Source: Telopea speciosissima
Taxonomy: Eukaryota; Streptophyta; Magnoliopsida; Proteales; Proteaceae
DNA: 64,000 nt
NCBI RefSeq assembly: GCF_018873765.1
Contig: NC_057921.1
Location: forward strand, 23,099,784-23,163,783
Direction of reading: 5' to 3'
Below are positions 10,241 to 60,255 of this stretch, piece after piece. Position numbers and translations under genes: made by a program. A model generated the notes under the pieces. The model made no database searches, was not told the DNA's origin, and was given only the letters and a program-made list of their open reading frames with translations. Within the stretch, counting starts at the first letter, position 1; each line of letters begins with the position of its first letter.

Positions 10241-10317
10241 GTTTCATCTCATATTATTCTTATTAATACAAAAGAAAAGGAAAAACCAATATCCATTAGA
10301 AGACCAATAACGTTTCC

Positions 10318-23600: not shown

Positions 23601-23940
23601 ATGGTCTCCTCGAAGGAATAGGATGATATTCTGGTGGAATCAGACGCTGAAAGGGTTATAGGTTACATCCTTCACCCTTCTCGTCCGGCCACACTTACAA
23701 TCGACCCGATTGTCAAGGATATCCTTCAGCTAGCTCCATGTTTTAGGACATGTTCCTTTAGTTATATTCCTAGGAATGCTAATGTTTTAGCAGATTTCCT
23801 AGCCAGGAAGGCCCTGTCTATTTCGTGTTCGACAATATGGCCACACTCCGATCCATGCATTGAGGAGTTTTGTAATACTTCTCGCATGAGCTTAGCACGA
23901 GTTTCTAAATAGACTATCTTTTACCCCCAAAAAAAAAAAA
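20664..23940 (+). mobile_element. L1-type LINE, 5'-truncated, with TSD and poly(A)
   Basis: The element is bounded by a 13-bp duplication and ends in a 12-base A run (23929-23940). The endonuclease domain is absent, so the copy is 5'-truncated. Remaining order: the DRWLQKSRVSWLTSGDMNT segment that precedes the RT domain, the RT (about 20927-21916), a zinc-binding region with SFIWRACSSCLPSREGL and CPHC...HILLHCPFA (about 22965-23105), and an RNase H domain (about 23448-23900). RNase H is typical of many plant L1 elements. Confidence 0.9.
20697..23912 (+). pseudogene. LINE reverse transcriptase / RNase H ORF2, broken
   Basis: The RT shows LKAPSVDGFPPIFFQSFW, SPYQSVFILGR, KLDIKRAYD, GIRQGDPLSPALF and the catalytic box as FTDDYLLF rather than the usual FADD. 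RNase H residues appear as NCDASL (D), EMGEALAI (E) and ESDAERV (D). Stops at about 20894, 21914, 22496 and a frame change near 23625 divide the frame, so no full protein is made. Reverse transcriptase would normally copy LINE RNA at a nicked target. Confidence 0.9.
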
Positions 23941-27851: not shown

Positions 27852-27971
27852 ATGAGGAACGCCATCCTCAAGCGTTTCGTCCAAGGTGCATTCAATTCAT
27901 CATCAAGGTTGAGATCGAGACCCGCCATTTCATCTGCAACTACTTCACCAATCGCCCTCTCGTACAGACAA
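27852..27971 (+). CDS. PEPCK-like gene, exon 1 (residues 1-40)
   Basis: Start codon plus most of the presequence ([14 protein letters not shown]...). The donor is CAA/GTGAGT and the next intron (27972-34833, 6.9 kb) is phase 0. This ATG is the first in frame, and the next Met in the protein is far downstream. Confidence 0.8.
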
Positions 27972-30900
27972 GTGAGTTCTTCCCCCTCCCTCCACAACAA
28001 TATATCTCCAGAATTTCGTTTGATTTTCTGTGTTTTATTGCTTTGGTTTGATTAGTATTCTGTCAGCCAAAGGTCCAATGATCTTGTAGTAGCAGTTTTT
28101 GAGAAATTCGGTTTGTTTTCTGCAAATATATTTCTTATTTTTACCTCATCGATTTGGATTCCGCAATTATTTCTTGTCTGTAATTTAACATGTATTTTTT
28201 AATTGATGGTTTATCGCGCTTGAGGCCTTCTGAGATATGCGCGAACTTAAAGCTATTCACTTTCGAGTTATCTAAAATTGTATCAGTCTTCTAATGTATT
28301 AATGCACCATTGGCATAACAAATTTTACCGGATGTAGCAACATTCATTGATAAGTATTGGTTGAGTTGGTCTTGATTCATTGTAGTTCCACTGTTGACTT
28401 ACCCGCATGCTGAAACTTGGTCTCTGCTTCAAGGGTTTATACTACGGAAGAAGTTGATTTCTTTTTATCACCCCCAATGTTCTCCAAGGTTAATACTGCA
28501 ACGGGACATGCAGGATCACTGTTGAGGTAGAGTAGTTGATGTGCTTTAGCGTGGATTCCCCTAGGGATTTTGGATGAGTCTTTGCGAGGCATGGAAGAAC
28601 TCCTTTTCAATTCGGGAGAAGGCATGACTGGTGGACCTTTGATTATTGTGGTTTGGTTAGTTCCATGCACTGGTGTTTGTGGAATTATTGTGGTTCGATG
28701 AGACTATAATTGTGCATTAATAATGGGGTTTATTTTAGTAGTCCAAGTAAATGGAGTGAGTCCTTTGTATGGGTTTTATATTTTGACAGAGTTTCTCTTA
28801 TTCTTCTTTGATGATTGAAACGGATCTACCTTGTTTATTAGGGGTGCAGATGCAAATGCTGACTAGTAGTAGTGACAAGTGAGACTTGGTGGGAGATATA
28901 GTTGTTTTGCTGCTTATCTTTGTAAAGAGTTATACAATCTTGTTTCCTAGCAGAATGTATTCTTGCAATGGAGGCTTGTCAATACAAATCATCAGCATTG
29001 GGATTTACTGTGGAATTTAGCAGGCTGGCAGCTGTGGTTAAATATGTTTATTTCCATTATGGAACTGTATTCTTTTTCATTTATACTTCAGAGATTCCTT
29101 TCATATAAATGGCAGAAGAAAAGAAAGTGCAACCAACATGGATTTGGCTAATGTTTCTGCTTTCAAGTATTTGTTGATAAGTATCTCCCCCCCCAATCCC
29201 TGTAGATCATTAGCTTGCGATATTGAAGTTTTCATCATAATGAGCAAGGTTGCTCAGCTTGGGAAAATTCTTGATGATAGGAAGTTGCCTGTTGACAGTT
29301 TTGAACCATGCCTTTGAGATATACCCACGTGCTTTCCATTAAAAATTATTTCATACAATTAAGATCTCCTTTGACAAAATACCAATCATTTTGAGGTAGG
29401 GATAAGGCGACGAGACTTTGAGGACACTGAATGGAGTGGTTTTTATAAACTATTTGATCTTGGTCTGCTTCTGGCAGACTTGCCTGATCAAAAGTTCTCG
29501 GATGAACTTTTTGAGGAAAGAAGAAAGAAGGGGTGAATTGAATTTTCCCATTACTCTCTAGAAGCCTGATATTTTCCAGCAGATGGAAGACATATTGATG
29601 TAGATACACTACCTTGGACCAACCCAAACCCAGTTGTGTATCTAAACAAAGATGAACCGGGCCCCAACCATGTTGTGGTTCAGTAGGATATTTACAATTT
29701 AGTTTATTTGGGAAAGATATGTAATCTTTTATTTTGGGGTAGCTATTAGACTTATAGGGAAAATTCCAATTTGAGTTTTATTGAGTTTCTATTTTAGTTA
29801 GTCTAAGTATTAGTAAGTAATTAGGTGTCTTTATTTTTTGGGGTTTTATAAATACATGTGTAACCAACAATTGAAGTAGATTGAAAAGATGAATTGAGTT
29901 TGTGTTTGTGAAGAGCCTGCGTGGCTTATTTGTGTTTGTTCCTTCTCTCCCCTGCAATTCTGATTTCTTCCAGGCTTCCATCTTCTCCTAACCGGCCCTT
30001 CTCCAATTTGGTATTGAGCTAAAGCTCCTACATCCCTCTTGTCAATCTCTCTCATCTCATTCTTCTTCTTTATCGCCTCTTTTCCATTACTGTTCTGTGA
30101 CCAACAGCAGTGAAAAAAACAAAAACAAAGCAGTTGAATCAAGACCCTAACCCCATCTCCTCCCCCTCCCGCCGTAACCCTTTACCTCTCCCATCTCTCA
30201 CTGAAACCCAAACCCCAACCCCTTCCTGCGCAACCCTTTACCTCTCCCATCTCTCGCTGAAACCCAAACCCCAACCCACCGCCCATTGAAACCCAGACTT
30301 TTCTCTTCCGATTCCCCTTAACAGAACCACCCTTCAGCTCCACCGATTGAAGAAAAAAAAAAAAAAAAAACAGAGAGAGCGAGAATCAGAGAATTGAAGA
30401 GAGCATAACTCATACCTGGTTTTGGAAGGTCGTCATCAAAGCCTTCGTCGAAGTCATGAAGCATCGTTCCTCTCCTTGTCGAAGTCCTTCAGCCATTTTT
30501 TTCCGCAAAAGTCTCGTGAGGAAGAACCCTTCTTTGCACCCAAACTCCTCCGGTTCTCCCTGCCCAAGTCGAACACAGTAACCCCACTCACGAGCATAGT
30601 TATCAAGGTGGGAAAGTGACCATGGCGTTTTAGAGGGGCAAAATTCAAGGCGACACCGCCATGGCGGCAAGGCGCCCGCCATGGCGCCCAAGGCGTCCAA
30701 GGCGACCAAGGAGCATGGACGCCATGGCGATGCCTTGATAACTATGCTCACGAGTCCCCTTTTGTGTCTTTCTCTTTTTATTTTCCTAAACTGCCCCCTC
30801 TAGTTTATCCTTATTCTGTTATTATCCCTTCATTTAAAACCACTTTCCCCATATTACCCCTCACTTTAGTCTTTTAGTTTATTTAGGTCCTTTTATCTTT

Positions 30901-33900: not shown

Positions 33901-36900
33901 TGATCCTAGATGTATGTATTCAGGATAAAAGGAGGCTCCTCTAAGAGTTGAAGTTTTCTCTTGGATGATGGGGTTAGGTAAGATACTCACCTGATTACTA
34001 AATTGTGTGTATATTTAGTGGATGCATTATGTGAACATGTCATGTTCAAGGTACCTGCCTCATTCCTTCATTTGAGAATTCATATCATCTTTGGTGGCTA
34101 CAGATGTTCTCTTCTTGGTAGCGTCACTCTTTTTGAGTGAACGGACCGAAAGTCAAAGATCATATGGTCCATTTTGTTTTCTCTAATATTTTTTTTTTTG
34201 GGGGGGGGGGGAATGTAAAGAATGCAAAGGCTCACTTTTTATAATGTCAGATCCCCTCCTTTGAGAATATGCATGAGTATAAGCTGTTAATGTGATAGGT
34301 TGCTTATGCTCTTTACAGGATTTGCATATCTTGAGGTGGTTTTCCCCCTAAGAGTTGGGATCACCATTATATAGGTAGGAAGGAACTCTATATCTGTTCT
34401 CCATTATATAGGTAGGAAGGAACACTGTATCTGTTCTTTGTTGTGGGGGATCTGTCATCCCTATTTTATACATATATAACTCTTATACGTGCACTGTAAC
34501 ACACTCGTACATTTTGAAGTGGGTAAACCTTCCATTCTTGGAGGAAGCTGCATCACCTGTGCGTACTGCATCACCATGGTATCTTGTAGTACATATTTAC
34601 CATGTACAAACATAAACTTAACTATTGTCAGTAATAATCCAATAGTTAGCACTATTCCATCTTAATCCTTTTCTGATCCTATAGTTGTGCATAACTTATT
34701 CTCCTAATATACTCAACAAAGAAAAACAAAATGCTTCTAATGTATCTTCTTTCTATTACATGCATGGAAATTTATGAAAGTGTTTGAAAGTCCTTATGAT
34801 CTAACATCATCTCCATGTTATGGAGTTCTGTAGTATGCTGCTTCTGCATCATTGGCTCAGGAGGAGGCAGAAACAGTTACATTTCCTAGGTAATTACTTG
34901 TCTGATAAAAGCACTTGATGCTTAAATGTAAATTCACATTTTAAACTTTCTCTTCAGTTTGTATTTACTTTTTGTTCTCTTTGTTGGGTTGAATCTTGCT
35001 TTTAAATTTCAATTAGCTTCACTTTCGTCTTATTTATCTTGCAACAGACTACTGTATTTCTTCATCATGTGGTAAATGTTTAGAAACAGCCTCTCTTGCG
35101 AAGCAGGGGGTAAGGCTGCGTACATTTGCCCTTCCCAGAGCCTGCAGTTGTGGGAGCCTCGTGCACTGGGATGCTCTTTTTTTTTGTTCTGTGAATGAGC
35201 TTTTGTTGCAAAGTTACATCCAATTCCCTCATCTGATATCAAGAAGGTGGTGCATAATTACCATGTTACCTGGCAATCTTCTGCTCCTTTTCTTCATCTT
35301 CTTCCAAAGTTTGCACTTGTTTTTAGTACTCATTGTTTTGGCTGAATGCTACCTGTAGACTTCAATTATCGTACTTTTCTGCTTTCTGTCTATCAACAGA
35401 CTACAGTATTTTCACAATGTATAGTACATCTTTGACTTTAACTTACCTTTGTAGTTAGCTGCAAATTTACCACCATTAATTTTTTGTGGGTGAATACAAC
35501 CATTAAATTTAATCAATCTGTAAAATGGATTTTATACTTCTGCAGTTATCTATGAGGGAGAGATACAGGTAGAGGTGCTAGAACAGTAGAACTTGTTTTT
35601 TGGTATAGAATATCAGAGTTGTTAAACTTTTAAAGTGGCTTTCAAGGAGTTTATTAAGAGTGAAAAGAACTACGTGGAGATAGTAGACAACAAGAAGCTG
35701 CTTCATTTGTGGCGTATCTTTACTAGGCATCTTTTTACTTTGAGATTTTCTTATTGACACCCCTTTAAGGTGTCAAAAATTTGTAACCTTACTTTTTCTC
35801 CCTTCTAACACATTTTTCTTTCAGTGAGAGTAAATCTTGTCATTTCACGTGTACTCGAAAAATGTGCAAGACAATAATAGCTTTTGGTAAAGACATAATG
35901 ATAAGTCACTTTAAATTATTTTGAAAATCTTTTTTTACTCTTGACTTAAGGAACTTTTGGAAATAAGACAAGGGGCAATCAATAGAGGGTTACAAGTTCT
36001 AAATTGATCAATAGTGTTGTCAATAATAAAAGAAAAAGAAGAAGAAGAAGAAGAGAAATTGAGAGGGAGAAGAGAAGAGGAGATGTGCAACTTGGGAGTT
36101 ACACGATATGTGTAATCTCCCTCAATACTTCATTGTATATTCAGTGAAGGGTAAAACAGGAAAACATAAGAAATAAAGAGAAAAAAGGACCTAGACAAAA
36201 ATACCCCTCACATATCTCGGTATTAGTGAAGGCATTAATACTGAGCCTTATACACTTCACGATAATACTCCCCCTCAAGCTGGAGCATAGATGTTAATCA
36301 TGCCCAACTTGTTACAAATATAATCCACTCTTACACTCCCCAAAGACTTTGTGAACATATCTGCAAGTTGTTCTCCTGTACGAACGTGATCAAGAGAAAT
36401 CAGTCCTTGTTGTAGCTTCTCTTGAACAAAATGACAGTCAACTTTAATGTGTTTCGTCCTTTCATGAAACACCGGATTTGAAGCAATATTGATAGCAGCT
36501 TGATTGTCACACCACAGTTTCATTGGAGAACCACCAACAAAGCCAAGTTCAGCCATTAACTGTTTCACCCACATTAGCTCACAGGTAACGTGTGCCATAG
36601 CCCTGTACTCTTAACTCTGCATTGGAACGAGCAACTACTGTCTGTTTCTTGCTCTTCCACGACACCAAATTTCCACCAACAAACACATAATAACCTGTAG
36701 TAGACCTCCTATCAACCGGAGACCCTGCCCAATCAGCATCTGAAAAACCCTTTATCCGCCCATGGCCATGATCAGTGTAGAGAAGACCATATCCAGGAGC
36801 CTTTTTAACATAGCGTAAAATATGCATAACAACCTCCCAATGAGACGTCCGAGGAGCAGACGAGAACTGACTCACTACACTAATAGGAAAGGCTATATCA

Positions 36901-39900
36901 GTCCTAGTCACTGTTAGGTAATTCAACTTTCCAACAAGCCTTCGATTCTTCTCTGGATTAGGCAAGACATCTCCATCATCTGCAGTAAGCTTCAAATTGG
37001 GAACCATAGGAGTATCTAGAGGTTTAGAACCCAACATTCCTATCTCTGACAGAAGATCAAGAACATATTTTCGTTGTGAGAGCAAAATTCCTTTCTTTGA
37101 CTGAGCAACTTCCACACTCAAAAAATATTTCAACCTTCCCAGGTCCTTGGTCTGAAGTTTTTGCTGCAAATGTATCTTCAAACCTTCAATACCAGAAACA
37201 TCATCTCCTGTGATGACTATATCATCAACATAAACCGCAAGAAATAATTTTTCCGCATTAGAATGACGGAAAAATACATAATGACACCGTGTCAGCCCAA
37301 ATTCTAACACAACCTCAGTGAATCTGCCGAACCAAGCTCGAGGGGACTGTAATGTAGTCCTAGGTAGGACAAGTTCCACTAGGAACCCGGGGAATAGGGT
37401 TAAGTAATAGGATTGGCCGAATGGGACAGATTTGGCTAATTAGGTCAAAATTTAGGGTTAGGGTTAGGGTTTTGAGGTAGGGTTTTATTTGGTAAAGATG
37501 TGTAGGTTTTTAGGAGTCTAATGGTGTAGGTTTGGATGGATTTGGATAAGGTTGGAAATCTAGGGTTTCGGGTTAGAGGCCTTGTGAAAATGGACTGTTT
37601 GCAAGATCTAGGGTTTATGGATAGATTTTGGGAAAGGGGTTTATAGGGTTTTACCATGCAGGTTTAGGGGACCTTAATAACATAAAAAGGTTAGGGTTTG
37701 AAGGGATTTTAAAATTCTACAGTTGGGGGCAGAATTGAGTTGCAGGTTTTGGGTTTAATGGAGTGGAGGAATGGAGGGAATAGAGTGGGAGTTATGAGCT
37801 GGATTTTGGATAGAGTGTAGGGAGAGGTGTGGGGGATATATGCTAGAAGTTTGGTTTGGAATTGATGGACAGATCTGAAGTTATGGGGGAGTCCTAGTTG
37901 AAGTAGGAGTTGCAGGTTTAATGGAGATTAGGGTTTGATGGATGGAGGGGGGTGTGGATTAGGTTAGAGGATGAAGTGAATAACTAAATTAACAAACAAC
38001 TCACCGGATCTGCAAATCTGCAGTAACAGCAAGTTGAGGAAGCTTGATGGAAGAAGAAGAAGGACCTCCCGATCTACAAGATGCAAGGAGTCGATTGGAG
38101 ATCCACCAATCCCTTCACCTTGATATTACTCACAAGGCAACCTTGATATTACTCACAAGGCACACTCACGATGGAGCAAAGGTAGCAACAAAGGCAGCAA
38201 GCATAAAACTGAGTTTTTATTAATCAAAATTCGTCTTCAATACATGGCCCCCTTAAAATCTTATATAAAAGGAATGGCTTAACCCAATCCTTAACCTATT
38301 AGCTAACTTAAACTAACTAGGAAACTGAAATAGACTCAAAATAGAGTCCTAATGACTTAAAAACAACTTAAACTACTTAAAATATACTAGCCAATAGGAT
38401 ATAAGAACCTCTTAGCCAATAGGATCACTTCACTTAAATTAGACCAATTGAACCAATTGGATGCAACCAATTTAAACCGGTTCAATTAAAAACACAAAAT
38501 AAAAACTAACTATGGAAATAAACTAAACTAAACTAAGACTCCCACTGAAACCCTAGGCTTAGGGTGGCTTCTTCAATTCGAGGAGGCTAGGATCTACATC
38601 AGACTGTTTCAGCCCATATAGAGACTTCTTCAACTTACACACTAAACCAGACTTCCCCTGAGCAATAAACCCAGGAGGTTGCTCCATATAAACCTCTTCA
38701 TTCAAATCGCCATGCAAGAATGCATTCTTGACATCTAGCTGATATAAAGGGCAATGGTAAGTAGCAGCAAGAGATATCAAAATTCGAACAGAAGTAAGCT
38801 TCGCCACAGGAGAAAATGTATCCAATTAATCGGTACCATATACTTGGGCATAGCCCTTTGCCATAGGGCGGGCCTCCAAGTGAGCCAAGGACCCATCAGG
38901 GTTCACTTTCACCACATACTCCCACCGATAATCAATAGCCGATTTACGTGAAGGTAAGGGAACAAGATCCCAAGTTTGATTTTCTTCCAATACCAACAAT
39001 TCCTCATTCATAGCAGCCTTCCAACCAGGACTAGACAATGCCTCTGCAACAGACTTAGGAACATGATGATTTTCAATAGCGTGTAAACAAGAATGAAAGA
39101 TGGAAGACAAACCATCATAGGAAACAAAGTTAGAAATGGGGTATTGGGTACAAGCCTGAACCCCCTTACGATGAGCAATAGGAACATTAAGATCAGAAGG
39201 AGGTTCCAAAGGAGAAGGATCATTACCTATTGCATGATCTGCCGGCAAAGAAGGAGATGGGACAGAAGTCGTAGGAGCAGGGGTCCAAGTACATACTTTT
39301 CATTGGTGACGTTTAAACACAATAGGTTGAGGTGCCGGTGATGAGGCAGCCTGCAAAACATGGAGAACAATAGACTGAACAATTGAAACGGGAAGATCAT
39401 CATCCAAGTTAGACACAGAAAAGGACGAACTATCACACAGTGTAGACTCAAAGAAAGAGATATCAGCTGTAACAAAGTATTTTCGCAACTCAAAAGAATA
39501 ACTACGATAACCCTTTTGGGTACGAGAATAACCAACAAATAGACACTTGAGAGCCTTGGGATCCAACTTGGAAACACTATGACGATGATCACGAATAAAA
39601 CAAACACTACCAAACACGCGTGGTGGCAAAACAAACAATGACACAAAAGGAAACAATAAAGAAAATGGTATACCACTACGTAAAACAGAGGAAGACATGC
39701 GATTAATGAGGTAACATGAAGTTAAAACAACATCTGCCCAAAAGGATTTAACTACTTTCATTTCAAATAAAAGAGAACGAGTAACCTCCATTAAATGTCT
39801 ATTCTCGCTCTCAGCTACACCATTTTGTTGTGGGGTGTAAGCACAAAAGGACTGATGAATAATACCGCGTTGAATCATAAATTCAGCAAAAGGGGCAGAA

Positions 39901-42900
39901 AAATATTCTTTAGCGTTATCACTACGAAGAACATGCAAAGGATTCGGAAATTGATTAGTTACCTCATTCACAAAAGCACAAAAGATAGAAAATAACTCAG
40001 ACCAATTTTTCATTAAGTAAATCCAGGTAACCCTAGAATGATCATCAACAAAACTTACAAAGTAACGAAAACCCAAAGTAGAAATGACAGGACACGGACC
40101 CCAAACATCTGAATGAACTAAAGCAAAAGGTTGGTCAGATCGTGTATTGACTCTAGGAGGATAACTCACACGGTGGAGTTTCCCAAACTGACATGACTCA
40201 CAATTTAAACTAGAAAGTAACTGAAATGACTATCAAGAAGCTTCAAACTCTCCAACAAAGGATGACCTAAACGACAGTGAATCTGGTGGGGTGACGCCAC
40301 ACTGATACACGGCATAGATGAACTGTCCTCAAGTATATAAAGTCCTCCCAACTCATGACCTCTACCAATCACCCTCTTCTACGAAAAATCCTGAAATAGA
40401 CAAGAATCCGAAGAAAAGGTTACAAAACAATTATGGGTTTTGATAAACCGACTAACAGATAAAAGATTAAAAGGAAAATCAGGCACATAAAGAACTGAAG
40501 GCAAAGACAGGGAAGGTGTAACATGAGCAGTACCAGTACTAGTTACTTTCGCTAAGGAACCATTAGCTAAGGTGACACTAGAAGAAGATTTCTGAAAGGA
40601 AGAAAGTATACCTGAAACACCAGTCATATGTTCCGAGGCTCCTGAATCAATGATCTAGGGACGAGAAGTGGCAGTCAGAAGGCATGTAGTGGCATTACCT
40701 GTCTGAACAAAGGTGGCAGTGGAGGCTAGGCTGATTGAGTAATCTGGAACTGTGTAAAACGGGCATATTCATCATCATACATCTTTACGGTCTTACCCTC
40801 AGGTTGTGGAGATGTAGAAACAGGAGACTCAGTAATAGTAGCAGAGTTGGTAAACTATTGCTGATTTGGTTTGCCATGAAGTTTCCAACAGAAACATTGG
40901 ATATATTCTGGACGACCATAATGATGACAACTATTGACAAGTCCTCACTAAACCACCAGAACCATCAGAATTACTTTGAGTAACCGAAGTAGGTGTTTTC
41001 TAGAACCAGCCCCACCACCAAGATCACGGCCATCACCAGTATTAACATTACCACCACTACCAGCCCCACTGTTGGGCTCACGGTTTGATGGAAAAGAAGC
41101 CAAAGCCGAAGTGTCATCATCAGTAGTGCTCTCATGAGAAACACGAACTCTGGAAAAGGTTTCAGACAAAGTGGCTATCTTGTCACCACCAAGAATTTGG
41201 AAACGAGCTGAGTCAAACTCCTTCCCATGTCATCCTAAAAACCCCATAAGAGCAAGTTGCTCCCGTTGACTTTGCATTTGTTCCCATTAGAAGTGATAGG
41301 AAGTAAGGAATTAAGCTCCTCATTCATCCTCTTAAAATCAGCAAAATATTTGGTCAAAGTACGACCCTTTCTATCAACCTTGTACAATTCTTGGGACAAG
41401 TCATAAATTCGGGAAATGTTAACGCAAAACATTGAGATACTCCCACAACTCCTTCACTGTATCAATGTGTGTTACCAAATCCATGATTTGGTTCTCCATA
41501 GAATTAGCATCTATCCCAAGATTCGAGCATCAACTGTTTCCCACAAGGGATCATCTTCGGGCTTAGGTTTGAATAGGTGATTCTGCTGATCACGTCCTGT
41601 CAACACCAACTTAACAATTTTCTTCCATTGTTTAAAGTTGGTGATCCCCTCCAACTTCTTCTCAGTGATACGATTGAAGGAGGAAGAAAAAATTTCTGTA
41701 ATCATTACAGACTTCGAACCATCACCAGATTTGGATACATCACCCATTATGCACTATTGGATTGATGAAGTGAAAACTGAAAAGAGAAACCCAAAGAGTG
41801 CTGAAAAAGTGAGCAAAAGCCGATTCTCCAAAAACCCTGACAAAAGTCGACTTTGTCAGAAACCTTGACACAAATCGATTCCATAGAGAAGATAACCAGA
41901 ATTTGTTTTCCTAAAAAATTCTGCCACAAAGAGAAGGCGACACTCTCCAAAAAATCCAGCCAATCCACAAGATCTCAAAACCCTGCTAAAAAATCGATTT
42001 TTCTCCCCCTAGAAAAATCGATCTCAAAACCCTAACAAGTGTTGCCAATTTGATGCTAGAGTCTCCAATGCAATCTTCACTCCATCCAACTCCTACAAAC
42101 ACATCCACAAACAGAAAAAGAGACCTAGTTCTTAATTTATGCCATGAACTAGTCTCTAAACAGTCCCAAAATACAGCATAGGGTGCTGCACCCCTTCAAA
42201 CAAAGAATAGGAGAAACCGCAAGCCCTTCAAGTCCTCAAACACTCTTCAATCTTCAGTTGTAGGCTGTAGAAAGAAGAAGAAGGGACTCACAAAAGCTGT
42301 AGCAGTACCTAATGCTCTGATATCATGTCAATAATAAAATATAAAGAAGAAGAAGAAGAAGAAGAGAAATCGAGAGGGAGAAGAGAAGAGGAGATGTGCA
42401 ACTTGGAAGTTACACGATATGTGTAGTCTCCCTCAATACTTCATTATATATTCAGTGAAGGGTAAAACAGGAAAACAAAAGAAATAAAGAGAATAAAGGA
42501 CCTAGACAAAAATACCCCTCACATATCTCGGTATTAGTGATACACTTCATGATAACAAGTGTTATTTAAACAATATCTTTTACTTTTATTGTTTTTGTTG
42601 GGTCTTTTTTGTTTCATACTTGGGTGTCACAAAGAGCTCAGTGTGTTGACATAAATTGCATTATATTGGGCATCCTCCATATTTTCGTGGGAGTTGGTTA
42701 GGTTATTCTCTGATTTTGTTAGTCGTACTTTTCATTATGCAGGGAAGGCCCAGGTGTCTCTTATGGTCTTAATTGGGCTCTTGCAGGGAGAGGTGTAATT
42801 GTAAAGGATAAAGCTTTTCACAACTTGAAGCCTTCTGAGCTACAACAGAAAGGTGCAACCACTTCAGGTAACAACTTTGATATCTTACTTTCGTACTTCC

Positions 42901-45900
42901 TTATTTTATTTGGCTTTATTTCTATTTATTTTTCATTTGTCTTGTAAATATTATTTCCTTTGTACCCAATTCTAAGGTCATGAAAATTTTCCTTTTTCTT
43001 ATTTGGGATATTTGTAGAGACTTTGTCTGGTCTTCCTGTTCATGTAAGAGGTAATGCGGTTGGAGGGGCTTCTGAAATTTCCAACGCACAATTTAGTAAA
43101 CTCTTGAAACAGGCAAGTCCTAGTTCAAGGCATGAATATCATCTTTCTCATTGGCTTTCTTTACCCTCTGGCTCAACCTGAAGATGATTTTTAGTTTTAT
43201 CTTCATTTTGTCATTTATAAATATAAATTTTAATATCAAGAATATCGACAATTTTGGTCCCCTTGTTGCTATGTCAACATATTTTTTGATAAGTTTGCTA
43301 GGGATGCATGATTCCTTTGAAATTTGCGACTATAACATACAAGATTTTCTAGCCTTGGTTTGTATAGCCTCTCTTTGTTGCATTGTATTGTGTACTAGGC
43401 CTTTCTTTTCAATGATATGTCTTGGTTTATCGAGAAAAATAAGTAGTAGTGTCACACAAGACTTTCCTACATCATGGCTGGTTGTATTGGGAAATCACTT
43501 AAAGTCCCCAAACTATGAGTTAGAAAGACCAACTGACCAAGTTCAAATATTCAGAAATATCGAGAAAGAATTTTACGCTAGAAAAATGAAGCCTATTTAT
43601 TTGACACTTGATCTTGACAGCTGAGTTTATATGGCACATTTTATTATCCATCCCATTTTCTCAGACCTTTTTATCTCAATACCACTTCCAACTTCATGTA
43701 GGACTTCAAATGTTAGTTTTGGTTTATTATTTGGTTTTTATGGAAATGGAAATAAATATCTGTTAGTGAAAATTGATGATATTGTTAAAGCTATGGATAT
43801 TATGAAAATTTAGTTGAAACTTGAATACCATCACACATTGAATAAGCAGTACATAAACATCCATTAGAGAAAAGCAAGATTTTTTGGATGCTCAACTTCT
43901 AACATCCAAAAGTAACACTTGTGGTGGTCAATCATTTGGGTCAAAGCATTACAAACGGTAGAGGTCCAACGTTCAAAAGTGGACATAATATACGATATAT
44001 GTGCCCCATACTCAAACCATTTTGGAGGCCAAACTCTAGTCCCTTCTTTAGGCCCATGCTAACCCTCGAAAACTGGCTTGAGCAAAGGTCCATTTTGATG
44101 CTTAATTAAGCTACTAGGATTACAACTATACACTTCCATGGACTGTTCAGCACACTGTTCTCCTGCACAAGAACAAGATCCCCTTGTTGTTCCCTAATGC
44201 AGGCCTGGTTTAAATTTGGGCTAGATTTTAGTATGGGTTTAGGTTGGGCCTTAGTTTTTGGGTTTTATCATTGTAATGGGCTGAATGATAAAGCCGGCGG
44301 TTAAGGGGATGCACAAAAATTATTATTTTATTAGTGGGTCCCATTTCTAGAGTCCGAGTTTATCCTTAGCTGTACAAGAGTTCTATTATTAGTTATTTTA
44401 GGCTAGTACGAGTTTTCTTAATTTTGGTTGTTTATTTAGAGTAAGAAAGTTAAGAGTCCTTAGTGGGGTCTATTTATATGTAACCACCCCTCATTCAGGG
44501 GAATTGAATGAATGGAATATGGTTTTGATTACGTTGTCGCCATTTACAGCTGTAGAGGTCTCTCTCCTGCCCCACGTTAGCTCTCTCCCTTTTATATATT
44601 TTTTCTCCTTCCTCACCGCATGGTTCTCTGTGTCTCTCTCTCATTGTTTCTTTCTTTTCTTATCCCTTTCATTATTTCTCTTTGCATCCCCACGGTAGGA
44701 AGTTTTCTCCCTTTGTCTTCTCTCTTATAAATTTATTTAGTTTTCTGATCCTATTTTTTAGGAAGATTTTCAGTGTTCTCACTCCATTACAACTTCTTCC
44801 TTCTTTCCTATTTTCTCTCTCTTGCGTGGTTGTTGTCTCTTCTTACTTGGACAGCTAGCAAGATTCTTTCTCTCTCTTTTCTGTCTGCTATTATTTCTTT
44901 GCTTATCTTAACTATCAATTATCCCCTTTTCTCTCCGCTTTGCCACCTCATCGACTTCTATATTTTGGATATTTTATTTCTGAGTTTTTATTCCTGAAAT
45001 CAGTTATGCAGGTATGATATTTAATCTCTTGAAATCTGATCGTTAGATCTGAGATCAGATCAGATCCAAATCTAGCCTTCAGATGAGAATTTTCTTCCTC
45101 CAATTCTTAAGTGAACCCATCACTTGTAGATCCAACGATTGACCTGCATCAATGCCTATATAAGATTGTTCTGCTGTGTGACTTTTATAGTTAATACCTT
45201 TAAACTTGGAGTTATTGTGAGCGTTAAATTGACAACTTAGTTTAACCAAGTAACCAACACTGGTTTATTTTATTTTAGCTTGTGTTCCTTAATTGGTTGG
45301 ATGGAAGCTTATGATGTCAGTTTTATTTTTTCCAATTATGATCCATCCCATACTTTTGTTAAAATGAGTAGTCCATTTCCTTTCTCAATGGTTTGATTCA
45401 TCTGATCCAAACCTGGTGTAATCAAGATCCTTGATAGCTCTGATGTGCTGGATCTTTGACTCTATTGTTGAGAGAGATTACTGTATATGCACATCGCTGT
45501 GGTGTCTCGTTCTTTTCTGTGTCTTGATGTATGTTAACATCTTTTTTTTTAGGTTACAACTCACATTTCATCCATATCAAATGTCTTTGTTCAAGATGGA
45601 GCTGTTGGGTCTTCATCAAAATATGATGCAAAAGTCCGTGTTATAAGTGACAGTCCATCTGCTGTATTATCACTTTCCAGTGTCCTATTTAGGACTCCTA
45701 GTCGTGCAATTTCTCATGATTCTTGCCCTCTGACTGTTTACGTTGCTACATCATTAAGGTAACAATTGGTTCTTTCTTGGTGTGCTCTAGTTTTGAATGA
45801 TTGCTGCAATTTGAACCATATGCTTTTTCGTTACCTTTCATGTTTTAGAACACACTGTATGTGGTAACTCTCAGTGTTGCATGGATTTCTTGCACAAAGT

Positions 45901-48900
45901 ATTTTCCCATCACATCTTTCAAAGCATTACAAGTTTCTGGCTTTGATTCTTATTTGCTAATTTTAGCTGCTTTCTTCTCACTTCACTCTGAACTTGCCCT
46001 TCATCAATTTATATGGCATTTTGGTCACCAGCTTTTGCAAACTTTGTTTATATAAACACTCTAATGGTGACATATCGCAAGATAATTGTTATTTATTTTT
46101 ACTGTTTATGCAGTCCAACCGCTGCTGATACTATTGGTCTTGGGTCTCAAGCAAATGGTGGTTTTATAGCTGCTGATATTGAGCGCTCATCACTCATTCT
46201 TTGTGGTAAAGCCTTTTCTGATATCAAGGGAATCAAAGATGCACTTGCTGCCTTGGCTGGACCTGTTATATCTGCTAGAGGAGGCCTGCCTTTATCTGCT
46301 AGGTAAAGAACTACATATTTGTTTTCATTCTTGATATGAATTATAATGGTGAAACTGGGAATTTACTTCCTATCATAGTGTCTTTCAGGCTATTGGTGTC
46401 TGGTGAGTCTGTGATTCTTCTTTTTGCTCCAGAGGATGATCTTCAGAGCTGCTCGGATCTGCTAGTTTCTGCAGATGCAGGTGTAATTCTGTCCTCTCAG
46501 GGTGTTGCACCACTCTTTCAAACTGGAGACTCTGGATCCCCCAATCTATTCAAGTTGCCAGCTGCTGTGGTACTTGCATCTGTTGATAGGTAAACATAAA
46601 ACCATGTGAAGGTTACTATAATTGATTTGATAAAACATTACATACACAGATGTGGTAACCTTGGCAGTTGGCACTACCACTTATTGGTGGTCCATCCGTT
46701 AGTTCTTTTAAATCTGTGTATATGCTTGTGAGAACTGACCAATCTTCGTCCATCTCTTGGATGAGTCAGCTAAAAAGGTTGCTTGCTGAAAACAATACTA
46801 AAAATTTCTGATCATGTTGCTTTATTTTGAGGAGTTAATGGAGTATGATTGGGGTGTGGGGCTGTTCTGTGTTCAACTTATTATTGTTCACTTCTCGAAA
46901 GATGGTTGTTGATGGATATGACTGGGGCTGGTGTATGTTGGCTTTGTCTGTGGCTCATTGATTGGTTGCTCTTGTTAAATTCTCCCTGCTGATTCTGTTT
47001 AGGGTTGGGGGGCAGCGATTTGTACCATAAATCTTATTATCTCTAGTGAGAGATTTTAGGAAAAGGACTCTAGCACTCCCGTCCAGTTTCTATTTTAATT
47101 AAGATTTTCCTAACTTGTAACACATTCATTCTATTGACATGGCTAGCCTGTGAATTGACTAGAAACCTAAATTAACTCTGTTCTGATGGTTTGGATTGTG
47201 ACAAGTAAATCAGATGGTTAAGTTCCCACTGGAATGAAGTTCCTCAATTAGACGGTTGAAATTTTCTACATTTATGTCAAGTTTGCATCCTTGCCCTATC
47301 CAAGAGGAGGCCTAATATTCTGATCCCAGAGTATGGAGAAGTACAAATGGTGTAGGAAAGGTTTGAGAAATCTAATACAAGTCTGAAGCCTAAGGATTAA
47401 GTAAATATGGGTTTGGGAAGGTCTACTAACACACAACTCACAACGTACATGCAGAAAATCATATCTAACAGCAGCCATAAATGATGAAAATTTCCAAATA
47501 CAAAGTGCAGAAAATTGGTGGAAATTTAATAAAGGATACATGATAGGTCAGTACCTTCTTTTGCTGTCCCGTGAGTTGGAGTGTTGTGATCAATTGCCAA
47601 GTCACTATCAAACTCCAAGAATGTGTCCTCAGTGTTTCCTTGTTGTTAACATGGAACTAAAACTCGTGAGATCCCAGTTTTTCCCAGGGTCGAGACGAGA
47701 TGGCATATGAAACAAAAAAGTGCAACAACGCGAGATCTCGAGATCTCAACCCAAACTCCTTTATATGAGTGCCAGTCTTGAGATCTCGGTGGAAAATCTT
47801 GGTATACAGATGCCTATTTATGCAAAAATTGGTATACAAACACTTATTTATGCCAGAAATCATTTACTTAAGATATTATTCATAAATAAGCAAATAGCCC
47901 CTTAATTGAATCCAATAAAAATAGTTAAAAAATCAAATTCCAAAAGGAATAAAAGTCAACCCCCCAGTTTAGGAACAAAAACTAGATTTTCGGCGGTAGA
48001 TGCAATTTTCAACTTTCTAGGAAGCTTTCCAACAAGTCCAAGATTGCTTAAATCTGATTTATATTGAAGGAGTTATGTATAGGTCAAACCATAGTTGTCA
48101 CGGCGTCACGGCGATCCAAGTCGGTGGAGGGGTGTCATGTCGATATATTGACATGTCGCCCGCCATGGCGTTGCCATGGCGAGCATGTCGACCATGTTTT
48201 ATTTTTTATTTTCTCTATTTTTAATGTGTTAATAGATGTATACTCAAGCCATTTTATTTTTTCTCTATTGTTTCTCAAGTTTTAAGAAGAAAATTCAGAA
48301 ATCGAAGAAGAAATCGAAGAGGGAAAGAAGAAATCGAAAGAAATCGAAGAGGGAAAGAAGAAATCGAAGAGGGAAGAAGAAATCGAAGACAAGAAGAAGA
48401 AATCGAAGAGGGAAAGAGAGACAGGAAGAAGAAATCAAAGAGAGTCGCCATGGCGTAGGTCGCCATGCAACCCTCTCCAGCGCCAGGACGCCATGGCGAT
48501 GCCATGACAACTATGACCCTGTGTGCAAATGTTGTCAGAATCGCTCGGAATGAAAGTATTTTTTTGGACATCTAAACAAATGAATATTTTACTACACTTC
48601 TGGTTTTTAGCAATGTTTTACCATATTAAGATTTATGGAATTTTTAGATTTGAGAAAAACCCAAGCACTAGAAAGTTGAAAAGAAAGTTGAAAATTGCAT
48701 CTACCGTCGAAAATCCAGTTTTTGTTCTTGAACTTGGGGGTTGGCTTTTTTCCTTTTGGAATTTGATTTTTGAACTATTTTTATTGGATTCAAATAGGGG
48801 GTTATTTGCTTATTTATGAATGATATCTTAAGTAAATGAAATATAAAATATGAATGATATTAAGCATAAATAAGTGTTTGTCCTGTGTCTGTCCTGGTTT

Positions 48901-57900: not shown

Positions 57901-60255
57901 AGGTTCTACAAGCCAAAAGCCCTAGCAGGAAGGTTAGCGTTTATGTAGAGTAGACTATCCCTCTATAGTGAGGGTAGATCTGATTAGGATGACCGACTGG
58001 AGGAACATATGGAGACAAAAAAAGGGATAGAAAGATGGATTATGGTTTCTTCTTTGGTAAAAAGTATATAGCAGTATGCCAAGATGAATTCTGTGTGTTT
58101 CTTCTTTTGGATTGGTGAGTCCATCCAAACCAGTTGCGCTACTAGGTGTCTGGACCAAGTTCAATCTGAAGTATGGTTAGGCTGGTCTGTCCCCTGCCAC
58201 ACTGAAGCAGGGAATGAAGCCTGGATTATCAATAGGATACTAGATGCATATTATTCTATAAAGAAGTGAATATCTTTCTTATGCGAGCTATATTACAGGT
58301 GTTGTGGAAAATAATGAGCAATTACTGTTGCCAAAATCCCAGTTATGTCATTTTAGCTACTGTTTTCTTTAATGTGAATTCTTTTGGCCATCTTTTGTAA
58401 TTGGGTAACATGGAAGAGTTAAAACCAAAATTTTATGAGATGATACCAATCCAAAATTTATTGTCATATAGTGGAGTTTTAGTGTGTGGAATCGTCATCG
58501 ACTTGAGGAGCCAAAGATTACTGCAATTTGTTAATTAGTGTTGAAATTATTTATCCACCCATGTCTCCCTTTGAATAATCCATTGTGTTAAAGCTCTTGT
58601 ATGATATACATATTGTTTCCTCCCTTTCCTATAAGGTCAGCCGTTTAGGGGAAGCGGTTCCAACATGGTATCAGAGTAGGCAGGGATCACGGTATCAAGT
58701 CCCTCTGGGAGTGGGCAGGTGTTGAAATTATTTATCCACCAGTTGAATAGTCCGCCGTGTTTGGGCTCTTGTATGATATACATATTGTTTCCTCTCTTTC
58801 CTACAAGGTCGGCCTTTTGGAGGAAGCGGTTCCAACAATTAGCCACAAACAAACCTAGCATTGTCTAAATATTTCCGTCTGATGGATGTAATTTTTACCA
58901 TTGATTGGGTTTGGTACTATAAAATAGGGTTGAATGGCAAAACAAAACCTGTGTTGCCAACCCCATTTAGTTGGCAAAGGCTCAGTTGAGTTAAAAGTTT
59001 TGGATACGGTGCTGCTACATTTATTTTTTGGTATTAAAATCTGTTTCTTTCTACCTTAACCTTGTTTTATTCCATCAAGCATCTTAGATCCCATTTCTTA
59101 CTGCAACCTATCGAATCTTAAGTTATATGATACATCCAAGTTTCCAGTTTTTGAAAATTTTAATAAATTCTGCCTTGAAGCAGCTCTGGCACCATTCCTT
59201 CTTTGTCGAAGCTCTCCCCTGGTCAGGCAGCTTATCACTTCCTTGCTGGCTATCAGAATGGGAAGTTTGTACCTGTTTATAGCAAGGGTCCCTCAGCTAT
59301 TGATCCTCTGGAACTTGCAAAGGCCCTCTTATCTAAGGTCTGGACAAACCCCCACAAAAAAAAAAGGAACCTACTTGTTTGTGCAGTTGTCAACGTTAGC
59401 GTTTGATATTTTTCAAGGTTTAATTGATCTTGCTTATTGTTATAACACTTGTGTTTTCTGTATGATTGTTGCAGATGAATGAGAAGCAGCTTCCATCTTT
59501 CCTAATTAACCTCAGTGAAGGAGAAAAGAAAGTGACAGGTAAGCTAGAGGGGAATATTGGTGAGGAATTTGAAATTTCACGTAATGTAGTCCACCTATGG
59601 ATTGAGTTGCCTTGTGCAACTTCCCTGTCACCTTTGATGGAAATGCTGGTAGATTGGGGTTGACGGTGTAAGGGAGAATTTTGACGAGTCGTGCGAAAAA
59701 TATTTCTACCCCAAAGTTCTTATGTTGTCAACTGAAACAATTCTGTGTTTTATTGGTCTAATATTGAGTGCTTAGGAGCTTTTGTCAGTCTATTATTGGT
59801 CTATGAACCGTCTAGAAGAACGAAAAAGAAAAATCTCATGGGTCACTGATTTGTAGACACAAGATATTACTGTTCTTTGAGAGCAACTATATTACTGTTT
59901 TTTCTTTTTGTAAATTTTGCTTTGGGGTACTTCCAAACGATACTTAAAAGTCCTTTTCTATTCTGCCATTTATTTCTGGAGCCCATTTTTGAAGCAACTA
60001 AAGTAACCCTTTATGTTTATGTAGGCAAGGAGCTGATTAAGCTGGCAGAATCCACACTGTCCAAGACTATATCTCCTTTTGAACCTAAAGGTAGCTTCTT
60101 CAATCATCATTCCCTTTTCCTTTCTCCTGGTCAACAGGGATAACTGTAGTTTACTGAATTTGTTTTATAATTTCACAGCTGGGGATCTCCAATCAAAGTA
60201 CAAGAGCTTTATTTCTGGTAAGTTCCAAGAGCTTCCAGAGGAGTTCTTATTCTGA
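27852..60255 (+). CDS. Mitochondrial PEPCK (ATP)-like protein lacking the P-loop, 11 exons, 450 aa
   Basis: Exons: 27852-27971, 34834-34889, 42743-42867, 43018-43112, 45553-45758, 46114-46302, 46389-46589, 59184-59337, 59475-59538, 60025-60090, 60179-60255. They sum to 1353 nt in one frame with a TGA stop. Residues 1-41 are Arg/Ser-rich without acids, ending RQY before AASASLAQ, a typical mitochondrial presequence with Arg at -3. Residues 130-355 follow [18 protein letters not shown] resembles the LFVxDxFxG strand, and residues 320-355 ([27 protein letters not shown]) align without gaps to the VIFLTADAFGVLPP and YHFLSGF region. PEPCK normally makes phosphoenolpyruvate from oxaloacetate and ATP. 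Here GLSGTGKT is replaced by APEDDLQS (277-284), the kinase-2 DD segment is absent and the protein is shorter than the usual 530-670 aa, so catalysis is unlikely. Function unknown. Intron 4 is GC-AG. The ATG context is aaaaATGA. I see no TATA box. Confidence 0.85.
27972..29590. other. Intron 1, left part: no element recognised
   Basis: Ordinary T-rich intronic sequence. The only open frame of note is a 77-codon minus-strand one at 28437-28670, which I cannot assign. Confidence 0.5.
29596..30005 (+). repeat. 5' LTR of the intron 1 element
   Basis: Starts tgatgtagatac and ends cccttctcca; 410 bp. Matches the 3' LTR closely, for example in the gaagagcctgcgtggct and atatgtaatcttttatttt blocks. 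Confidence 0.88.
30595..30746. mobile_element. 152-bp MITE of the CATAGTTRTCA family, 8-bp TSD
   Basis: ctcacgag occurs at 30587-30594 and 30747-30754. Inverted ends are catagttatcaagg. The interior repeats GCCATGGCG and AAGGCG motifs. The 8-bp duplication fits hAT. It sits in the interior of the intron 1 LTR element and therefore inserted after it. Confidence 0.88.
31118..31770 (+). pseudogene. Retropepsin-like frame of the intron 1 element, active site lost
   Basis: [20 protein letters not shown] resembles the retroviral-type protease pocket in which a D-S/T-G triad precedes A-S-x-N-F; here it reads D-E-R. A later [15 protein letters not shown] segment resembles the LGxxWL region that follows in gypsy proteases. 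Two further frames continue the sequence to the polypurine tract. No zinc knuckle, RT or integrase is present. Confidence 0.55.
31772..33843 (+). repeat. 3' LTR of the intron 1 element, split by a solo LTR
   Basis: Runs 31772-31801 and 33464-33843. Joined length is 410 bp, the same as the 5' LTR. Confidence 0.85.
31802..33463. mobile_element. Solo LTR-like insert, 1662 bp
   Basis: Begins tgtaacgccccc and ends gggtattaca, flanked by aacct and aaccc, a 5-bp duplication with one change. It interrupts the 3' LTR of the intron 1 element. No coding domain; the 117-codon frame at 32807-33160 is a CT-rich shadow. The tgt(a/c)acgcccc start recurs at 63540. Confidence 0.78.
34834..34889 (+). CDS. PEPCK-like gene, exon 2 (residues 41-59)
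   Basis: A 56-nt exon between tgtag and GTAATT, coding [18 protein letters not shown]. It carries the probable presequence cleavage point. Being so short inside two long introns it is easily missed by gene finders. The intron after it (34890-42742) is 7.9 kb. Confidence 0.75.
35079..35186 (+). repeat. Au-like SINE, 3' portion
   Basis: gaaacagcctctcttgcgaa, ggtaaggctgcgtaca and cctcgtgcactgggatgctc followed by a T run are the hallmarks of the 3' half of the plant Au SINE. The tRNA-related 5' half is not present. Confidence 0.75.
36018..36267 (-). repeat. 3' LTR of the copia element
   Basis: 250 bp; carries about 21 extra bases (near 36231-36251) absent from the other LTR, plus scattered substitutions. 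The LTRs are therefore clearly diverged. Confidence 0.9.
36275..41747 (-). pseudogene. Copia gag-pol, interrupted and frameshifted
   Basis: Order on the minus strand: gag (41747-41235) starting [10 protein letters not shown] with ITNFKQWKK; protease with [12 protein letters not shown] (about 40660-40620); integrase with [29 protein letters not shown] and [16 protein letters not shown] (40169-39650); RT with [20 protein letters not shown] (about 38740-38680) and SLYGLKQS, then after the inserted [22 protein letters not shown] and the RNase H block with ADMFTKSL (37339-36275). Stops and frame changes between segments make it non-functional. Confidence 0.9.
37350..38601 (-). mobile_element. Solo LTR inside the copia RT, 5-bp TSD
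   Basis: gactg occurs at 37345-37349 and 38602-38606, splitting the YGLKQ-SPRAWF stretch. On the minus strand it starts TGATGTAG and ends CTACATTA. It shares its middle part (aggttaaggattgggttaag and ttgattaataaaa) with the LTRs at 50509 and 52678. Contains a short tttagggttagggttaggg tract near 37451. Confidence 0.85.
42326..42557 (-). repeat. 5' LTR of the copia element
   Basis: 232 bp; contains the same GAA-rich start (plus-strand view) and the gtgaagggtaaaacaggaaa block as the other LTR. Confidence 0.9.
42743..42867 (+). CDS. PEPCK-like gene, exon 3 (residues 59-101)
   Basis: Acceptor tgcag, donor CAG/GTAACA. Codes [18 protein letters not shown] and a Lys-rich continuation. The following intron is only 150 bp. 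Confidence 0.85.
43018..43112 (+). CDS. PEPCK-like gene, exon 4 (residues 101-132)
   Basis: Acceptor ttgtag. The donor is CAG/GCAAGT, the standard consensus of GC-AG introns. Contains [14 protein letters not shown], where true PEPCKs have the substrate-binding TGRSPKD motif; the Arg-Ser-Pro is not conserved. Confidence 0.85.
43113..45552. other. Intron 4 with LTR-like debris
   Basis: GC-AG intron of 2440 bp. From about 44180 to 45170 the sequence resembles an LTR of the type with gggtctatttatatgtaacc and a tgaatgaatggaat polyadenylation-like region, followed by CT-rich DNA. No TSD or ends were resolved. No coding domain. Confidence 0.4.
45553..45758 (+). CDS. PEPCK-like gene, exon 5 (residues 133-201)
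   Basis: Acceptor follows a ten-base T run (tttttttttag). Codes [18 protein letters not shown] and [16 protein letters not shown], which parallel the PEPCK segment ahead of the FIRP motif. Donor AAG/GTAACA. Confidence 0.9.
46114..46302 (+). CDS. PEPCK-like gene, exon 6 (residues 201-264)
   Basis: Codes [18 protein letters not shown], matching the PEPCK FVAFNLxxxxQLIGGTxY strand. The catalytic Tyr and Lys pair (WYGGEMKKG in E. coli) and the MHCSANVG histidine are not kept ([10 protein letters not shown] and LPLSARLLVSG). Confidence 0.9.
46389..46589 (+). CDS. PEPCK-like gene, exon 7 (residues 264-331)
   Basis: Acceptor tttcag, 86-bp intron before it. This exon holds the P-loop position ([10 protein letters not shown] at 277-286) and a short substitute for the nucleotide and metal region. 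Donor TAG/GTAAAC opens the 12.6-kb intron 7. Confidence 0.9.
47650..49179. mobile_element. hAT-like non-autonomous element in intron 7
   Basis: Ends are catggaactaaaactcg and, reversed, caaggaactaaaactcag. Flanks are gttgttaa (47642-47649) and cttgttaa (49180-49187), 7 of 8 bases equal. Inner sequence repeats ctcgagatctc-like motifs. Another element is nested at 48090-48515. No transposase frame is readable. Confidence 0.75.
48090..48515 (+). mobile_element. CATAGTTRTCA-family element, nested copy
   Basis: Inverted ends are catagttgtcacggcg and, reversed, catagttgtcatggca. The left 130 bp matches the reversed right end of the element at 54842-55576. The centre (about 48297-48440) is a minisatellite of agaaatcgaagagggaaag units that gives a Lys/Arg/Glu-only reading frame. 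Flanking 8-mers (ggtcaaac and accctgtg) do not match. Confidence 0.7.
49481..50190 (-). pseudogene. RTE-type LINE, 3' end fragment
   Basis: On the minus strand the segment reads [24 protein letters not shown] residues, then [18 protein letters not shown] and [10 protein letters not shown], the C-terminal part of plant RTE ORFs. Below it the tail motif ggtcggctacatggatcc (reversed orientation relative to the ORF is not needed, since it is read on plus) occurs at about 49507 and, altered, at about 49723. Only the last part of the ORF is present, with frame breaks upstream of 50111. Confidence 0.75.
50509..51020 (+). repeat. LTR of the TGATG(C/T)AG family
   Basis: Starts tgatgtagataagtcac and shares gggcttattttag, tttttgagtcctctatataa and ttgattaatgaaa with 52678 onward and with the reversed 37350-38601 copy. 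The right edge is uncertain. Confidence 0.6.
51200..51786 (+). pseudogene. Retropepsin-only remnant of an LTR element
   Basis: Across shifting frames the stretch carries gypsy protease-region residues: [26 protein letters not shown], a Cys-His-LL-G-like segment and a KNTYTF-like segment. The active-site D-S-G is not readable. A purine tract (agaggagaat) ends at 51786, just before an LTR start. Confidence 0.6.
51787..52152 (+). repeat. LTR-like sequence starting tgatgcagtgac
   Basis: Follows a polypurine tract and resembles the intron 1 LTR in layout: tgatgcag start, tgtaatctttcatttt block, a ggagtcttagttttacaact segment and an aataatattgagttgag region. The right edge (cctcatcgca) is a guess. 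Confidence 0.55.
52678..53560 (+). repeat. LTR of the TGATG(C/T)AG family, second copy
   Basis: Starts tgatgcagatacatcacc. Contains aaccgattcggtgtttttgtt, cctgataggttaaggatttg and ttgattaatgaaaagc, matching the 37350-38601 solo LTR in reverse. A 66-bp-spaced pair of tttgatccaat(c/t)(a/g)acaccttgc motifs lies at 53225-53305. The right edge and TSD were not resolved. Confidence 0.6.
53561..54841. other. Intron 7, noncoding stretch
   Basis: No domain. From about 54232 the sequence gatcgggcaacccaagaggg plus ggtgaattgggtg resembles the start of a plant LTR type also suspected at 16757. The element was later interrupted at 54842. Confidence 0.35.
54842..55576 (-). mobile_element. CATAGTTRTCA-family element, 8-bp TSD
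   Basis: gtttgggg occurs at 54834-54841 and 55577-55584. Inverted ends are catagttgtcatggcg and, reversed, catagttgtcacgtcg. It contains a perfect 20-bp palindrome, catgtcgatatatcgacatg, near 55513-55532 and many GCCATGGCG-type motifs. No ORF. Relative to the copy at 48090 it is inverted. Confidence 0.85.
55585..58533. other. Intron 7, noncoding repeat debris
   Basis: No coding domain found. The gtggttcagcaacttgc motif near 56293 resembles the ggttcggccaatacttgcc motif in the 16757-18053 insert, which suggests fragments of the same LTR type. Short CCGGT/ACCGG-rich sequence runs from about 56740 to 56970. Confidence 0.35.
58539..58837 (+). mobile_element. TRIM retrotransposon, 299 bp, complete with TSD
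   Basis: attag occurs at 58534-58538 and 58838-58842. LTRs are 58539-58665 (127 bp) and 58720-58837 (118 bp), both starting tgttgaaattatttatccac and ending ggttccaaca. The primer-binding site tggtatcagagt follows the 5' LTR immediately. The 54-bp interior ends with a purine-rich ggagtgggcagg. There is no coding capacity. Confidence 0.95.
59184..59337 (+). CDS. PEPCK-like gene, exon 8 (residues 331-382)
   Basis: Acceptor gaagcag; joins exon 7 in phase and completes the gapless [13 protein letters not shown] match to PEPCK. Codes [19 protein letters not shown]. The donor AAG/GTCTGG is weak; reading on would stop at 59404-59406. Confidence 0.85.
59475..59538 (+). CDS. PEPCK-like gene, exon 9 (residues 383-404)
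   Basis: Acceptor ttgcag, donor CAG/GTAAGC. Codes [19 protein letters not shown]; the Met is internal, since phase 0 splicing runs into it. Confidence 0.85.
60025..60090 (+). CDS. PEPCK-like gene, exon 10 (residues 404-426)
   Basis: Acceptor atgtag, donor AAG/GTAGCT. Codes a helix-like [20 protein letters not shown]. Confidence 0.8.
60179..60255 (+). CDS. PEPCK-like gene, last exon (residues 426-450)
   Basis: Acceptor ttcacag. Codes [20 protein letters not shown] and ends EEFLF then TGA. A strong donor-like GGTAAGTT lies inside at about 60217-60224 but must be ignored for the frame to close. Confidence 0.85.

Follow-up and report, generated by a model that had tools for sequence, protein, structure and literature searches.

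A putative mitochondrial pseudoenzyme with the ATP-PEPCK fold in Telopea speciosissima and other angiosperms, and its likeness to the Euglena complex I subunit NDUEG2

The nearest described counterpart of the plant protein reported here is NDUEG2, a complex I subunit of Euglena gracilis. According to PMC10884005, NDUEG2 lies in a domain at the tip of the peripheral arm and is a structural homolog of phosphoenolpyruvate carboxykinase (PEPCK), without two ATP-binding sites and unlikely to be functional; the C-terminal beta-strand of NDUFS4 joins its Rossmann sheet. PMC12699882 names NDUTB12 (trypanosome) and DIPPA_18104 (diplonemid) as its counterparts, and PMC8312217 places NDUTB12 among trypanosomatid complex I proteins. 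The papers conflict over Tetrahymena NDUTT2, which is equated with NDUEG1 in PMC10884005 and called an NDUEG2 homolog in PMC12854811.

The Telopea gene occupies positions 27852-60255 (+ strand) of the window, by which we mean the whole 64,000-nucleotide stretch of T. speciosissima DNA that was analyzed. Eleven exons with consistent phases give a 1353-base coding sequence (450 amino acids plus stop) whose translation agrees letter for letter with the database protein LOC122664881 (uncharacterized, T. speciosissima; P0001), so that the exon count and length proposed in a first-pass annotation of this DNA stand. Exon 1 (27852-27971) holds the start codon and residues 1-40 of a presequence, exon 2 (34834-34889) its remainder (residues 41-59), and the PEPCK-like fold begins in exon 3 (42743-42867). 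Exons 9 (59475-59538) and 10 (60025-60090) are part of the same LOC122664881-matching sequence, and exon 11 (60179-60255) encodes the C-terminal helix and the stop codon; the exons between them are taken up below with the stretches they encode. Nine of the ten introns are GT-AG, and the one after exon 4 (43018-43112) is GC-AG, with its donor at 43113. This non-standard donor is common to both Telopea paralogs (the second being the C11 copy, L142).

Three introns are large (intron 1, 6862 bases; intron 2, 7853; intron 7, 12594). The transposon-rich setting noted earlier is evident in intron 2, which carries a reverse transcriptase fragment (RVT_2, 36582-37379) and an integrase fragment (rve and SH3_retrovirus, 39303-40169), both on the minus strand and together presumably the set of a Copia-type element. 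Elsewhere in the window are an rve integrase-core fragment (1952-2452, +), an open reading frame with TAXi_N/TAXi_C and Asp domains (10247-11137, -) indicating an aspartyl-protease-type gene or fragment, and open reading frames with RVT_1 followed by zf-RVT and RVT_3 (20927-23623, +), which we take to be a non-LTR retroelement.

Profile and structure comparisons agree on the family of the protein. The Pfam model PF01293 (ATP-PEPCK) matches the 450 residues at E = 9.7e-16, and comparison of the structure model gives a strong match, with ATP-PEPCK as the fold. Nearly invariant columns are plentiful at positions 128-277 (the core) of a 98-row plant alignment, and the YHFLAGY region in exon 8 (59184-59337) is likewise conserved, as the first-pass annotation had held. 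The canonical P-loop, GxSGTGK[ST], is found in none of the 135 plant-type proteins fetched, compared to all 54 bacterial enzymes, and kinase-2 DDEH in none of the 135 vs. 53 of the 54. Exon 7 (46389-46589) encodes FAPEDDLQS (residues 276-284) at the P-loop site, which confirms the earlier placement of APEDDLQS (277-284) there; the commonest residues at this site among the 98 aligned plants are F-A-P-E-D-T-I-Q-S. The D268/D269 columns are a gap in all 39 plant rows of a residue table, an alignment-dependent result. Between the P-loop and YHFL[AS]G lie 133 residues in E. coli (248 to 381) and 71 in the Telopea protein (277 to 348), so about 62 residues are missing rather than the roughly 85 first estimated. 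This spacing has a median of 133 (range 132-134) in the 44 of 54 canonical enzymes matched and a median of 71 in the 58 of 98 plant sequences matched, the ends of whose range (21-93) are probably wrong matches of a rough regular expression. Taken together, the family and fold matches, the loss of the P-loop in 135 of 135 relatives fetched and the purifying selection described below bear out the first reading of this protein as a conserved PEPCK-fold pseudoenzyme. Given the strong structural match, and with no relative among the 135 fetched retaining the P-loop, neither objection foreseen for that reading applies; the plant protein is almost certainly a catalytically dead PEPCK.

Relatives were sought in three protein searches. 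At least 120 of the 253 matches of the first were listed, and the 111 that name an organism are all angiosperms by name; the second yielded Euglena NDUEG2 as its sole find; the third, for proteins of about 465 amino acids or more, gave 26 matches, again all angiosperms by name. Plants listed with the gene include cotton, cocoa, spinach, beet and two wild or African species of Oryza. Among the organism-naming matches listed, no non-angiosperm homolog other than that of Euglena appeared, and among the matches listed no intermediate between the plants and NDUEG2 was found. Database titles of the relatives are either PEPCK or “uncharacterized,” many UniRef entries reading “phosphoenolpyruvate carboxykinase (ATP).” Motif counts (P-loop, DDEH, Walker A, TGR) covered all 135 plant-type proteins, and the alignments took in 36 of 120 (first), 39 of 135 (the residue table, with 54 bacterial enzymes) and 98 of 135 (second), the last after near-copies and partial, overlong and fused models had been dropped by eye. 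In the Morella rubra (P0130) and Eragrostis curvula (P0134) models the protein is joined to an actin or VTT domain, perhaps by run-through annotation of adjacent genes.

The N-terminus is of mitochondrial type. Its first 40 residues carry a net charge of +7 and lack acidic residues. RQYA (residues 39-42), which straddles exons 1 and 2, resembles a plant processing site, whose consensus is R-x-[YF] with a small residue next; R-x-[YF]-[AST] occurs somewhere in the first 75 residues of 20 of the 36 aligned rows. These features uphold the presequence claimed in the first-pass annotation as a prediction from sequence. Judged by the presequence, our one guide to location, the plant protein is probably mitochondrial, and as a nuclear-encoded product it would be imported through a cleavable presequence.

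The best explanation of these results, which we hold with modest confidence, is a nuclear gene for a mitochondrion-targeted, dead ATP-PEPCK-fold protein that serves as a non-enzymatic scaffold, perhaps on complex I. Since the nucleotide site is lost, PEPCK chemistry is not expected. The protein would act through protein contacts, with the PEPCK sheet as a docking scaffold, and its likeliest partner would be complex I, at the peripheral arm (N module), where it might act as a loosely bound subunit or an assembly factor. Complex I is the best candidate because the only placed PEPCK-fold pseudoenzyme found, NDUEG2, sits there; this analogy sharpens the “regulatory or structural” role suggested at first, when NDUEG2 was not named. 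PDB sequence searches with the plant protein gave no plant complex I chain, so any association in plants would have to be loose, substoichiometric or confined to assembly. Complex I as the specific partner strikes us as rather improbable, an estimate lowered slightly after NDUEG2 was found to score better with bacterial PEPCKs.

PDB sequence searches with the plant protein found NDUEG2 weakly (E = 0.046-0.05) in addition to PEPCKs, and NDUEG2 was matched at E = 0.13 by a profile of 36 plants. NDUEG2 itself scores 16.1 bits against PF01293, under the cut-off of 26.5. With hhalign, the 36 plant sequences align to NDUEG2 at E = 3.2e-5 over 136 columns with 26% identity; in further hhalign comparisons NDUEG2 matches the 54 bacterial PEPCKs at 1.3e-6, the plants at 3.2e-5 (98 sequences) or 4.6e-5 (39), and a narrower canonical set of 20 at 5e-5, a tie with the plants. 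Identity between the plant proteins and NDUEG2 is 15-27%, depending on method and region. The Telopea protein aligns over 307 residues with NDUEG2 vs. 371 with PEPCK, and its structure model is closer to canonical PEPCK than to NDUEG2, which may partly reflect greater loss of the fold in NDUEG2.

A rival account is that of a PEPCK paralog that degenerated independently, is unrelated to NDUEG2 or complex I and scaffolds some other mitochondrial assembly, its likeness to NDUEG2 being parallel decay. Such an account draws on the closer scores of NDUEG2 with the 54 bacterial PEPCKs than with plants, the plant structure being nearer canonical PEPCK, the failure to find intermediates among the matches listed, and loss of the ATP subdomain as an expected path of decay (our inference). 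Set against it are shared derived residues in excess of chance, a similar replacement at the P-loop and a nearly equal net deletion. We regard independent decay as a tenable reading, though on the whole a doubtful one.

The shared residues were counted at alignment columns in which the residue of NDUEG2 and the majority residue of the plants each differ from the 54 bacterial enzymes. There are 43 such columns, and the two agree in 12, compared to 3.7 expected by permutation (p = 1.1e-4) and 3.45 under a BLOSUM null (p = 9e-5); at a stricter cut-off they agree in 9 of 35 (p about 8e-4). By block, the agreement is 7/15 at 140-179, 0/5 at 217-231 and 5/23 at 240-273, these blocks having been picked from the MAFFT alignment after its inspection. 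When NDUEG2 was slid by 1-30 residues either way as a control, agreement never exceeded 0.167 (up to 8 columns), vs. 0.28 for the actual alignment. One shared stretch lies in exon 5 (45553-45758), where QDGAVGS ([HQ]DGAxGS in relatives) resembles HDGAFGS of NDUEG2; DG[AVG]xGS is present in 100 of the 135 plant-type proteins, and DG[AV]xGS in none of the 54 bacterial enzymes. The distance from the P-loop site to (Y)xxLAG is 71 in the plant protein and 70-71 in NDUEG2, vs. 133 in E. coli, if ANLLAG of NDUEG2 is the equivalent of YHFLAG, as inferred by eye.

A phylogenetic tree separates the plants plus NDUEG2 from 24 bacterial enzymes with support of 100/99, a near-trivial result with three groups. 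The active enzymes in it are bacterial only, the canonical Telopea PCK gene was left out, and NDUEG2 is a single sequence with a branch length of 1.34; because it is a lone long branch, long-branch attraction could account for its grouping with the plants. The better canonical score of NDUEG2 would still be compatible with activity having been lost once and the plant lineage having then changed quickly. We consider a specific common ancestry of the plant protein and NDUEG2, apart from active PEPCK, to fall somewhat short of an even prospect. The bolder proposal, that the angiosperm protein and NDUEG2/NDUTB12 represent a single ancient pseudoenzyme whose activity was lost only once, before these distantly related eukaryotes diverged, and which has been at the service of complex I from then on, is unlikely. 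If it were true, purified plant complex I would have lost the protein, a labile N-module subunit or assembly factor, plant complex I would have an unrecognized part, and the “Euglena-specific” domain would be a relic of early eukaryotes.

The main functional alternative to a scaffold is a ligand sensor built on the remnant pocket, in which the N-terminal half would bind oxaloacetate, PEP or another acid and signal to a partner. The residues that bear on this are those with catalytic roles in E. coli PEPCK (Tyr207, Lys212, Lys213, His232, Arg65 and Arg333). They were read from the residue table, in which columns near gaps are alignment-dependent. Exon 6 (46114-46302) contains the Tyr207 site, changed to Phe in 38 of the 39 plant rows (Phe or Tyr in all 39), and the Lys212 equivalent, which is Lys in 38 of 39 and is the only one of the catalytic set to be kept. 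Both favor a sensor, as do Arg111 and Gly112, present in at least 90% of the 98 rows beside the stretch aligned with TGRSPKD. Counting against it, the equivalents of Arg65, Lys213, His232 and Arg333 are unconserved as aligned: Lys is found at the Lys213 site in 3 of 39 rows, Ser, Pro or Ala usually take the place of His232, and the Arg65 column has Arg in one row only, probably Coptis. At Arg449, 38 of the 39 rows have a gap. Thus the earlier statement that the other catalytic residues are gone holds for most of them and fails for Lys212. TGR occurs in 7 of the 135 proteins, in six of them ahead of the fold or at the opening strand; residues 106-111 of the Coptis chinensis protein (P0050) read TGRTPK where PEPCK has TGRSPKD. 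We judge a metabolite sensor quite unlikely, and a scaffold rather than a ligand sensor probable.

That the protein is still active, as PEPCK or as another kinase, is suggested by the many UniRef titles naming it an ATP-using carboxykinase, and is very improbable given that the PEPCK P-loop and DDEH are missing in all 135, that most catalytic residues are lost, and that a generic Walker A is found in just 2 of the 135, each time at a place other than the P-loop site.

A second full copy of the gene lies on contig C11 (38145171-38177529, -), spread over about 32 kb, and with its exons joined it equals the database protein P0004. As the window copy is of similar extent, both genes have long introns. 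For residues 60-450 the pair has dN 0.061 and dS 0.240, a ratio of about 0.25 (NG86), compared to dN 0.138 and dS 0.213 for residues 1-59; purifying selection therefore acts on the fold and more weakly on the presequence. The earlier claim of selection is sustained, and dN/dS between paralogs makes the case better than the open frame cited then. The three introns of 6.9, 7.9 and 12.6 kb and the transposon pol fragments in intron 2 might suggest a gene-model artefact or a decaying pseudogene, which we reject as extremely improbable in view of the 11-exon open frame, a coding sequence equal to the database protein, a C11 paralog of the same structure, the dN/dS of about 0.25 and conservation of the protein in related plants.

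The same Telopea genome has three canonical PCK genes: one on contig C4 (3843146-3846955, -) and a pair on C5 (5823854-5828725 and 5837620-5840960, both +) separated by about 9 kb. A whole-genome PF01293 search gave 21 exon matches, all within these three, and the window gene had no match in it at E <= 0.001. A recent duplication of canonical PCK is unlikely as its origin, because that search hit only the three canonical genes.

None of the titles and abstract openings seen describes a PEPCK-like plant protein that is inactive or mitochondrial, subscription papers and supplements being outside this scope, and the available portions of PMC10884005, PMC12854811, PMC12699882, PMC6018760, PMC8124061 and PMC8312217 make no mention of a plant homolog of NDUEG2. 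The likeness to NDUEG2 is a new lead for the plant protein. The sequence tells against the many database titles of an ATP-using PEPCK, which may distort gene counts and carbon-metabolism models. Were the link true, a complex I part called Euglena-specific would gain a plant counterpart, which would bear on the complex I of early eukaryotes and provide a named gene for work on plant complex I assembly.

Compared with known systems, the protein differs from ATP-PEPCK (Thermus thermophilus 1xkv, E. coli PckA) in its presequence, in the loss of the P-loop, of the Asp pair of kinase-2 and of most catalytic residues, and in being about 62 residues shorter between the P-loop site and YHFL[AS]G. The three canonical Telopea PCK genes share its Pfam family and keep GTGKT, DDEH and YHFISG in their exons, whereas the window gene belongs to a separate, divergent lineage. 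With NDUEG2/NDTB12/NDUTB12 (PDB 8iuf, 8j9h) it shares the PEPCK fold and the lost P-loop, and it has the NDUEG2-type combination of that fold with a lost ATP site and an incomplete C-terminal part; the P-loop replacements (FGSEANLNS in NDUEG2, FAPEDDLQS in the plant) and the sizes (472 vs. 450 amino acids) are also alike. Residues 316-329 of NDUEG2 (P0121) keep LFGAHHSLWTPNGV, which resembles a decayed form of the kinase-2 segment LIGDDEHGWDDDGV found in active PEPCK, a trace that is changed more in plants. NDUEG2 is mitochondrial and a solved subunit of complex I, whereas the plant protein, known here from its sequence, is predicted to be mitochondrial.
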